Part shown: one piece after another, positions 22,236 to 24,175 of the stretch
Layout: each line of letters starts with the position of its first letter
Position numbering within the stretch: the first letter of the stretch is position 1
DNA from: Victivallis lenta
GTDB lineage: Bacteria; Verrucomicrobiota; Lentisphaeria; Victivallales; Victivallaceae
NCBI RefSeq assembly: GCF_009695545.1
Contig: NZ_VUNS01000002.1
Span: 248,001-312,000 of the forward strand
Length of the DNA: 64,000 nucleotides
Direction: 5' to 3'
Program-made: the position numbers and the translations under genes
The notes under the pieces: model-generated
Databases searched by the model: none
Seen by the model: the letters and a program-made list of their open reading frames with translations, nothing else
Told to the model about the DNA's origin: nothing

Positions 22236-22334
22236 AACCGCTCCCGTATGAGTATGGATCGAATCTTCCGCTTATATACAAGGGAATATATACGCGCGAA
22301 AAGCAAATGTCCAGTCGCGGAGCGAGAGTTTTCA

Positions 22335-23195
22335 TCAGTTTGCCATACCGGCGAACCGGCGGACATCGCCGGCCTCCTCCGGCAGATGGAGGCAGCGGCG
22401 GCACTTCCCGGCCGGCCCCACCACCAGAAACCGTTCTTCGACCGAACATGGAGCGGGCCGATAATCTTCCGGCACCCCCGGCGGCCTGATGCAGGCTGCA
22501 TCGCTGCGGCAGGAGCAGAAAAGCTCCCCCGCGAACCGCAGCGGAACCGGGCATTTGCGGGAGAAGCGCCGCACCTCCTCCCCGAGTCGGACCGCCTCCC
22601 GGCAGGTCAGCAGCAGCTCCGGATGGAACCGCCCTCGCCCTTCGGCCAGAAAGGGGCCGATCTGCACCGTCGCCGCGCCGGAGAGGACGGCGAGCGAAAT
22701 CAACTGCTTCCACTCCCGCAGCGCCGGACGGGTCACCACAATGCCGACGCCGAACGGCACGCCGCGGTTCCGGCAGAGGTCGAAGAGGTCGATCAGGCCG
22801 TCAACGCTCCAGGTCGAGCCGGTCAGCGCGCGGTAGCAGCGGATTCCGGGCAGGCTGAACGCGAAGTCGCCGCGCGTCCCCCGCAGCCGTTCGACCAGTT
22901 CGCGCGTAACGAGGCTTCCGTTCGTATAGAGCGTGAAGTGCGGCCGTTCCGGGTGCGCGGCCAGAAAATCGATCAGTTTCGTCACCCCCTCCTTCAACAG
23001 AAGTTCGCCTCCGGAGAGCGTGAAACGGCGGACGCCGCGCCGGATCAGCAACTCCGCGACTTCGATCCATTCCGGAATCGACAGCTCGCGGCCGTACAGC
23101 GACGGCTCCTCCAGCCACGGCGCGTAGCAGAACAGGCAGGAGTGATTGCAGTTGAACGTAAGTTCGAGGATCGCGGAATCCGGAATGCCGCTCAT
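22335..23195 (-). CDS. Radical SAM protein with SPASM-like Cys-rich C-terminus, next to a small lipoprotein
   Basis: The 286-residue enzyme has the radical SAM cluster motif CNHSCLFC (Cys 16, 20, 23) and GGE-type SAM contact FTLSGGELLL near residue 70. Its Cys-rich C-terminus (FCSCRSDAAC, PCSVEERF, GKCRRCLH) could bind auxiliary Fe-S clusters as in SPASM proteins. The start at ATG 23195 has GGGAAG upstream and lies four bases after the stop of a 69-residue lipoprotein gene. That tight pairing suggests the lipoprotein or a peptide is the substrate. The chemistry cannot be assigned. Confidence 0.82.
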   Translation of the reverse strand: MSGIPDSAILELTFNCNHSCLFCYAPWLEEPSLYGRELSIPEWIEVAELLIRRGVRRFTLSGGELLLKEGVTKLIDFLAAHPERPHFTLYTNGSLVTRELVERLRGTRGDFAFSLPGIRCYRALTGSTWSVDGLIDLFDLCRNRGVPFGVGIVVTRPALREWKQLISLAVLSGAATVQIGPFLAEGRGRFHPELLLTCREAVRLGEEVRRFSRKCPVPLRFAGELFCSCRSDAACIRPPGVPEDYRPAPCSVEERFLVVGPAGKCRRCLHLPEEAGDVRRFAGMAN

Positions 23196-23199
23196 CGCA

Positions 23200-23409
23200 T
23201 CACTTCCCGGTTTCCTCCCCGGCGGCCGGCAGCGGCGCGGGCTTCCCCAATATGGTCGGGACCGCGGCCTCCGGCGCCGGCGCAATATCGCCGGCAAGCG
23301 CCTGCCGTTCCCCGTCGCCGCCGGAACAGCCGCCCGTGCCGAACAAAGCCAGAACCAGCGACAGCGGAACCGAACAGCGCACCAGCAGTTTCAACAGGAA
23401 TTTCCGCAT
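23200..23409 (-). CDS. Small lipoprotein (69 aa), possible radical SAM substrate
   Basis: The peptide has a basic, hydrophobic signal and a lipobox ending GTGGC (Cys 28), leaving a 42-residue mature part (CSGGDGERQALAGDIAPAPE then AAVPTILGKPAPLPAA). It is Ala/Pro/Gly-rich with no further Cys. A strong GGGAGGTG lies just upstream of the ATG, and an upstream TTGCAT-16-TATTGT could be its promoter (23444-23471). It is co-transcribed with the radical SAM gene, whose ribosome-binding site lies at its 3' end. This resembles precursor-plus-maturase organisation, but a plain envelope lipoprotein is also possible. Confidence 0.65.
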   Translation of the reverse strand: MRKFLLKLLVRCSVPLSLVLALFGTGGCSGGDGERQALAGDIAPAPEAAVPTILGKPAPLPAAGEETGK

Positions 23410-23512
23410 AAGCACCTCCCGGAATATTTTGATGACTGACAACACAATATCACCGGAACAGCCGAATGCAACCGGAAAACGTAAAAAGATCGTAAAACGG
23501 TTCTCCGGTCCG

Positions 23513-24175
23513 TTACGCCGGGTCGGCCGTGATGGCCATCAGCGCCGCTTCGACCTTTTCGCGGTAGAGCTCCAGCCCGTCCTCGTCAAGATCGGGCGGA
23601 ATCATGACCATGTCGCCGAGAATCAGCGTGAGGGTAGAGAACGGCTTCGGAATCTGGAACCCGTCCCAGCTCCGGACCGACCAGCAGCGCGAGGCGTTGA
23701 CCGAGATCGGGATGACGCCGGTGCCGGTGACCGACGCAAGGGAGATCGGGCCGGTCTTCATGACATAGCGCGGACCGCGCGGACCGTCCGGCGTAAAACT
23801 CACGTTGTACCCCTCTCTGACCGCCTTGATCCCGGCCCGGTACGCATTCGCCCCCTTCTTCGAGGAGGAGCCGCGCAGACTCTTGAGTCCGAGAATCGAA
23901 ATGAAGTCCGCAATATACTGCCCGTCACGCGAGGCGCTGACCACCGCAACGGTCCGTTTCCGCGCTCCGGCCGGAAACAGCACGGCGAAGAACATGAGCC
24001 GGTTGTGCCAGGTGACCGACACGGCGCCCTTCGCATTTTCGATATAGCCGTTCGGGTCCACCACCCGGATCCGGAAGCAGGTGCGCACATAGAGCTGCAT
24101 CAGCCGGGCCGGCAGCCAGTAGATCCAGGTCGGCAGCTTCTTGACGCTGCGGAATTTCTGCTTGAAATAACCCAT
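23513..24175 (-). CDS. Lysophospholipid acyltransferase-family protein (DUF374)
   Basis: The 220-residue protein shows the DUF374 signature: VSVTWHNRLMFFAVL for the HX4D-type region, ASRDGQYIADFISILG and VSFTPDGPRGPRYVMKTG. An N-terminal hydrophobic stretch anchors it in the inner membrane. Family members are thought to transfer acyl chains to lipid A or phospholipid precursors. The ATG at 24175 overlaps the nth stop by one base (TGATG), which fixes this start. A 17-codon longer reading would lie within nth. Confidence 0.85.
   Translation of the reverse strand: MGYFKQKFRSVKKLPTWIYWLPARLMQLYVRTCFRIRVVDPNGYIENAKGAVSVTWHNRLMFFAVLFPAGARKRTVAVVSASRDGQYIADFISILGLKSLRGSSSKKGANAYRAGIKAVREGYNVSFTPDGPRGPRYVMKTGPISLASVTGTGVIPISVNASRCWSVRSWDGFQIPKPFSTLTLILGDMVMIPPDLDEDGLELYREKVEAALMAITADPA

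Follow-up and report, generated by a model that had tools for sequence, protein, structure and literature searches.

A predicted lipoprotein encoded ahead of a short radical SAM enzyme in Victivallis lenta: a candidate substrate-maturase pair

In Bacteroidales, the TIGR04133/TIGR04134 system consists of a radical SAM enzyme beside a small lipoprotein. We presume that this is probably the system meant by the first-pass annotation of the DNA analyzed here, which referred to pairs of small lipoproteins and radical SAM enzymes in other phyla. In the TvgA/TvgB system, a radical SAM enzyme and a precursor with repeated TVGG motifs give rise to cyclopropylglycine (PMC9062424). The sactisynthase SkfB (6efn, PMC6231123) has an N-terminal RRE and forms a Cys thioether. 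Bufferins (PMC12452194) are MNIO-modified RiPPs whose precursors carry signal peptides.

The window analyzed here is a 64,000-nucleotide stretch of the Victivallis lenta genome (contig NZ_VUNS01000002.1, positions 248,001 to 312,000). On its minus strand, a gene for a predicted lipoprotein, the putative radical SAM substrate (23200..23409), is followed by a gene for a radical SAM enzyme of 286 aa (22335..23195), the latter recognized from its ORF, Pfam, alignment and a structure model. The lipoprotein gene starts with ATG at 23409, ends with a stop codon at 23200-23202 and encodes 69 aa; the Shine-Dalgarno sequence GGGAGG is located at 23415..23420 on the same strand. The enzyme ATG at 23195 lies four bases past the lipoprotein stop. 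The 3' end of the lipoprotein gene contains sequences that may act as ribosome-binding sites for the enzyme gene (23203..23219, minus strand), namely GGGAAG at 23203-23208 and GGGAGGAA at 23212-23219. The first-pass annotation had described a 69-residue lipoprotein with a 42-residue mature part rich in Ala, Pro and Gly, encoded four bases before the enzyme gene and containing the ribosome-binding site of the enzyme gene in its end; the ORF coordinates and the lipobox bear out the protein and the spacing, and the possible sites agree with the last point.

The leader or signal peptide comprises residues 1-27 (23329..23409, minus strand), with the lipobox GTGG before Cys28, as judged from the sequence, a PROSITE-type rule and alignment of the leader with relatives. 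The PROSITE pattern for bacterial lipoproteins fits at GTGG-C28, where lipidation is predicted, and the six residues ahead of Cys28 are uncharged. The mature part of 42 aa contains no Trp, Tyr, Phe or His, and its only Cys is the Cys28 predicted to be lipidated.

Profile searches (NCBIfam, Pfam) gave no family match for the window lipoprotein. In the sequence search, the only same-genus matches at E <0.01 were in the genomes G002 and G003, and both were located directly upstream of same-genus radical SAM homologues. The alignment of the mature parts from the window and G002 scored better than all 5000 shuffles. Given this adjacency and this alignment, the pairing exceeds chance. A de novo motif model placed two copies of a core motif in the mature part, ALAGDIAPAP (residues 37-46; 23272..23301, minus strand) and TILGKPAPLP (residues 52-61; 23227..23256, minus strand), and both rank among the best sites of the search. 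The first copy aligns with LAGDIAP of G002, and the spacing between the two copies is identical in the window and G002 peptides. The probability of two copies by chance in the window mature part was p ~0.003, and owing to the low-complexity Ala/Pro/Gly tail the motif matches are weak on the window alone.

Among the nine genomes of the genus, a full-length enzyme homologue was found in five (the window genome, G002, G003, G004 and G006), and G007 contained a C-terminal fragment only. A scan of genome contigs identified 78 loci encoding homologues of the enzyme, a family to which neither NCBIfam nor Pfam gives a name. The distribution is patchy: at E 1e-15, a homologue was present in 24 of the 387 genomes of the phylum-level sample. 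No relative was found on viral contigs and no match on plasmids. Decayed radical SAM remnants were observed in G007 (L071, G007:C1:43053) and G083 (L178, G083:C53:30922), which suggests repeated gain and loss of the enzyme gene. A tree built from 74 enzymes shows two groups, one of short enzymes (about 265-290 aa) from Lentisphaerota, Kiritimatiellota and Verrucomicrobiota and the other of full-SPASM enzymes of about 350 aa from Bacteroidota, Spirochaetota, Planctomycetota, Fibrobacterota, Bacillota and others. Judged by length and predicted domains, the window enzyme is of the short kind; it lies near the split between the two groups, and its exact place in the tree is not secure.

A small partner ORF was found upstream of the enzyme gene in 43 of the 45 short-enzyme loci, across several phyla; the median gap was 5 bp, and the partner stop often overlapped the enzyme start. 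At three of the 43 paired loci (L097, L100 and L102), gpsA was located between partner and enzyme. No clear partner was found at two of the 45 loci, G022 and G098. Enzyme homologues lacking the peptide gene, which the first-pass annotation would have counted against a peptide-modification system, are restricted to these two exceptions in the short group. It also named conservation of the mature part as a check, and here glycine-centred repeats and an NxxNE box were found far above shuffles, together with purifying selection, as detailed below.

The partner leaders have the common pattern MKLS...Q.AI....G.PL.GL, which occurs in exported and non-exported forms. Exported partners begin with MKLSKK...RQ.AI....G.PL.GL, while the partners of L097, L100 and L102 carry no signal peptide and start with MQLSEEEKQKQ.AI, which resembles the start of the exported partners. 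In most members, a recognition leader may therefore be fused with an export signal. The PROSITE-type lipobox rule was passed by 25 of the 43 partners, and 11 of the 43 contained a LysM-like (peptidoglycan-binding) segment. The repeated core has the rough consensus [hydrophobic]-[MALVR]-G-[DEK]-x-x-P. Across 28 non-redundant mature parts, Gly was the next residue after 28 of the 61 Met (8% expected; p 1.5e-15), [MALVRT]G[DEKSR] occurred 57 times versus 22.7 +- 4.3 in shuffles, and the NxxNE spacer box occurred 30 times versus 0.7. The partners of L101 and L107 contained four to five repeats. Under a strict pattern, an upstream ORF with two motif copies was present at 14 of the 45 family loci and at 0 of 25 other radical SAM loci in the same genomes. 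The dN/dS values, calculated for the genes of relatives, were 0.09-0.65 for the partner genes and 0.07-0.38 for the enzyme genes, indicating purifying selection on both; in most cases the partner evolves faster than its enzyme, the pattern expected of a substrate. The partner genes are thus located beside a maturase gene and encode a conserved leader and core, as do those of RiPP precursors in the broad sense. These results support the proposal of the first-pass annotation that the peptide is modified, and from them we infer the modification itself.

The two genes of the window occupy an approximate insert (22320..23510, no strand assigned) bounded by a DUF374 acyltransferase-like gene on one side and by the cpaB promoter on the other. 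The distance from the DUF374-like gene to cpaB is 1281 bp in the window with the pair, and 122-125 bp at the empty sites of the congeners G002, G003 and G008. Local BLAST matches to the empty sites end at about 23503-23520 and resume at 22244-22236. Most simply, the pair appears to have been gained as a two-gene unit. Membership of the Flp/Tad pilus operon was considered, with cpaB 99 bp downstream. A sigma70-like promoter, TGGACA-17-TATATT (22285..22313, minus strand), is located ahead of the cpaB (Flp pilus) operon and is visible in all three empty sites; because this promoter-like sequence intervenes, the pair is probably not part of the downstream operon, and congeners carry the pilus gene without the pair. 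In another species, G007 (L196, G007:C24:12500-16700), a P-type Ca2+ ATPase gene fills the same gap, which makes the acyltransferase-cpaB gap an insertion-prone spot.

The window enzyme contains CX3CX2C at C16/C20/C23 and matches PF04055 at 67.7 bits versus a cut-off of 29.5, which places it in the radical SAM superfamily. TIGR04085, the SPASM model, was outside the best 25 models for the window enzyme, and a full-SPASM relative matched it at 39.8 bits. The C-terminus of the window enzyme contains only C250-x12-GX4C and CxC, and the chain ends at 286 aa. A twitch-type (half SPASM) domain is recognized by a single auxiliary-cluster motif, C-x(9-15)-G-x4-C, enclosing a beta hairpin; in sequence and model, C250-x12-G263-x4-C268 surrounds strands 256-259 and 264-266. 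The description as a SPASM-like radical SAM enzyme in the first-pass annotation thus stands for the radical SAM part (CX3CX2C, PF04055), but in place of a full SPASM domain there is a half-SPASM/twitch tail. After the barrel follow C227xC229, C250 and GX4C268, and these four residues (C227, C229, C250 and C268) could hold one putative auxiliary cluster in the short group.

No NCBIfam model came near its cut-off for the window enzyme. TIGR04133 was rejected, as the window enzyme scored outside the best 25 models (the last of them at 18.7 bits) and the relative L127 reached 38.1 bits versus a cut-off of 425. An SkfB-type sactisynthase was rejected with TIGR04403 at 40.1 bits versus a cut-off of 300 and with the RRE absent, viperin (pVip) with NF038283 at 39.7 bits versus a cut-off of 180, and PqqE by the tested cut-offs.

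Residues C16, C20, C23, C250, C268 and H270 were kept in 63 of 63 aligned members, and C229 in 62 of 63. A Cys at position 25 (CxxxCxxCxC) was also present in 62 of the 63, and only the window enzyme has Ala at this position. In all, A25, A158, V153 and V252 of the window enzyme replace near-invariant C, N, T and A, respectively, and its branch length in the tree of 74 enzymes is 1.56. The window copy calls for caution, mainly because it lacks Cys25 and sits on a long branch, and it may have drifted in function. These replacements, the long branch and the enzyme remnants in G007 and G083 would fit an ancestral substrate-maturase pair in which the window enzyme has degenerated or altered its chemistry. 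However, the reading frame is open, the SAM-cluster and putative auxiliary Cys residues are all kept, the predicted fold is confident, and the lipoprotein retains two motif copies and good translation signals, so that we regard such degeneration or change as quite unlikely.

The AlphaFold model of the window enzyme had a pLDDT of 90.8. Its best structural match was SkfB (Z 26.4, 3.0 A over 255 residues), followed by SuiB (Z 25.6) and viperin structures (Z about 24), with EpeE further down at Z 17.1, and SkfB also came first in the sequence-profile comparison. The modelled fold most resembles RiPP maturases (SkfB, SuiB). The RRE is absent from the window enzyme, and in the model the chain begins directly at the radical SAM barrel. 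The viperin structures (Z 24.4) come close to SkfB, and pVip models match members of the family across the core alone, with E values of 1e-12 to 1e-18, as would be expected if the enzyme acted on a small molecule or nucleotide in a viperin-like or MoaA-like manner and the lipoprotein were a partner or unrelated neighbour, e.g., a membrane tether or sensor. We consider this quite unlikely, as the viperin model remains far below its cut-off, C250-x12-GX4C-x-H is invariant in the family and C229 nearly so, the partners keep their repeated motifs and mostly evolve in the manner of substrates, and the single insert holds the pair without metabolic genes.

The preferred reading, to which we assign a probability of roughly 0.72, is that an enzyme in the cytosol modifies the lipoprotein at its core repeats, that the lipoprotein is exported and anchored to the envelope, and that the two genes form a self-contained cassette. 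The leader of the lipoprotein precursor would double as the Sec/lipoprotein signal, and the radical SAM enzyme, translated right after the lipoprotein, would bind the precursor in the cytosol. The enzyme would then abstract hydrogen atoms at the glycine-centred repeats (ALAGDIAP and TILGKPAP in the window) and install one modification per repeat. Sec export would come next, followed by cleavage and lipidation at Cys28, and the product, a short Pro/Ala/Gly tail bearing the modifications, would stay attached to the cell envelope. We infer that the enzyme acts on the lipoprotein, with the repeats as its sites, that modification precedes export and that the product is anchored to the envelope; modification in the cytosol before Sec export is favoured because radical SAM chemistry depends on a reducing environment and an export signal is absent from the enzyme.

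The core motif fits no known modification. The mature peptide contains neither a free Cys nor any Trp, Tyr, Phe or His, so the sequence makes a carbon-centred reaction most likely, located at the motif glycine or next to it, such as epimerisation, desaturation, or a C-C bond linking aliphatic or charged side chains. Thioether, ether and cyclophane/aromatic links are unlikely in the window peptide, as the needed residues are absent, unless the lipidated Cys is involved. One specific version of the preferred reading, compatible with it, is a peptide epimerase making D-residues beside the motif glycine. The lack of a Cys or aromatic residue for a thioether or cyclophane and the presence of EpeE/YydG among the profile and fold matches point this way, but EpeE ranks behind the sactisynthases with a Z of only 17.1, and no hydrogen-donor Cys was recognized, with C25 missing in the window enzyme; on balance, this version is rather unlikely.

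The full-SPASM relatives were located behind membrane-anchored proteins of about 200 aa with a near-invariant GAMCY and four further Cys residues (L117, L126, L131, L135, L137, L139, L148, L149, L151, L167 and others), with three or four GAMCY proteins in tandem at L139 and L167. A GAMCY or MCY-type motif was present at nearly all of the 35 full-SPASM loci. Family-model searches gave no family name for this sister system, and the GAMCY partner had no significant match among solved structures. At the loci L150, L156, L158 and L165 of Treponema MAGs, the partner peptides of the enzyme relatives were 65-100 aa long, with the CxxC-type start KKCSxGHxxDSxxxECPxC and AMCYDMG. The genome of the window also contains other radical SAM genes (L002 on C4, L003 on C15 and L004 on C3), each after a peptide of about 46-54 aa that starts with YEKPEL/YAKPEL, and L002 and L003 follow repeat-rich, autotransporter-like genes.

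This work extends one suggestive gene pair to a family with about 75 loci and a substrate motif that can be tested. Gut and rumen bacteria, in which few radical SAM systems have been studied, contribute many of these loci, and the two-gene cassette with its 42-residue mature peptide is a compact and experimentally tractable system. If the preferred reading is true, radical SAM chemistry would decorate lasting surface lipoproteins, beyond secreted antibiotics or cofactors. Tentatively, and at somewhat less than even odds, the family may represent a new class of envelope-anchored RiPP-like lipoproteins in Lentisphaerota, Kiritimatiellota and relatives, with a leader fused to the export signal, an RRE-less twitch enzyme and a novel modification at [hydrophobic]-G-[DEK]-x-x-P, and with a sister branch acting on GAMCY proteins in many other phyla. 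No description of the enzyme-lipoprotein family was found in open papers, which is weak evidence given the thin coverage of subscription journals, and the claim of novelty for the family is made with moderate confidence.

As in the TIGR04133/TIGR04134 system, a radical SAM enzyme here adjoins a small lipoprotein. However, the scores of the enzymes fall well short of the TIGR04133 cut-off (425 bits, against 38 for the relative L127), which indicates a separate system; the short enzymes here are without half of SPASM, and their partners contain glycine-centred repeats and have no matching NCBIfam model. Like TvgA/TvgB, the present system has a short, repeated Gly-containing core for which Cys is not needed, but the motif differs, and Tvg is a five-gene cluster with a dioxygenase and peptidase/transporters (PMC9062424), whereas there are only two genes here and export would be by the signal peptide. 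SkfB has the closest solved fold and likewise a twitch-type C-terminus with a CxC motif, but the window system has neither an RRE nor a free core Cys. A signal peptide on a RiPP precursor is a feature shared with bufferins (PMC12452194), although the enzyme families differ (MNIO in bufferins, radical SAM here). By analogy with these systems, the window pair would work like a radical SAM RiPP system whose precursor is itself a lipoprotein.
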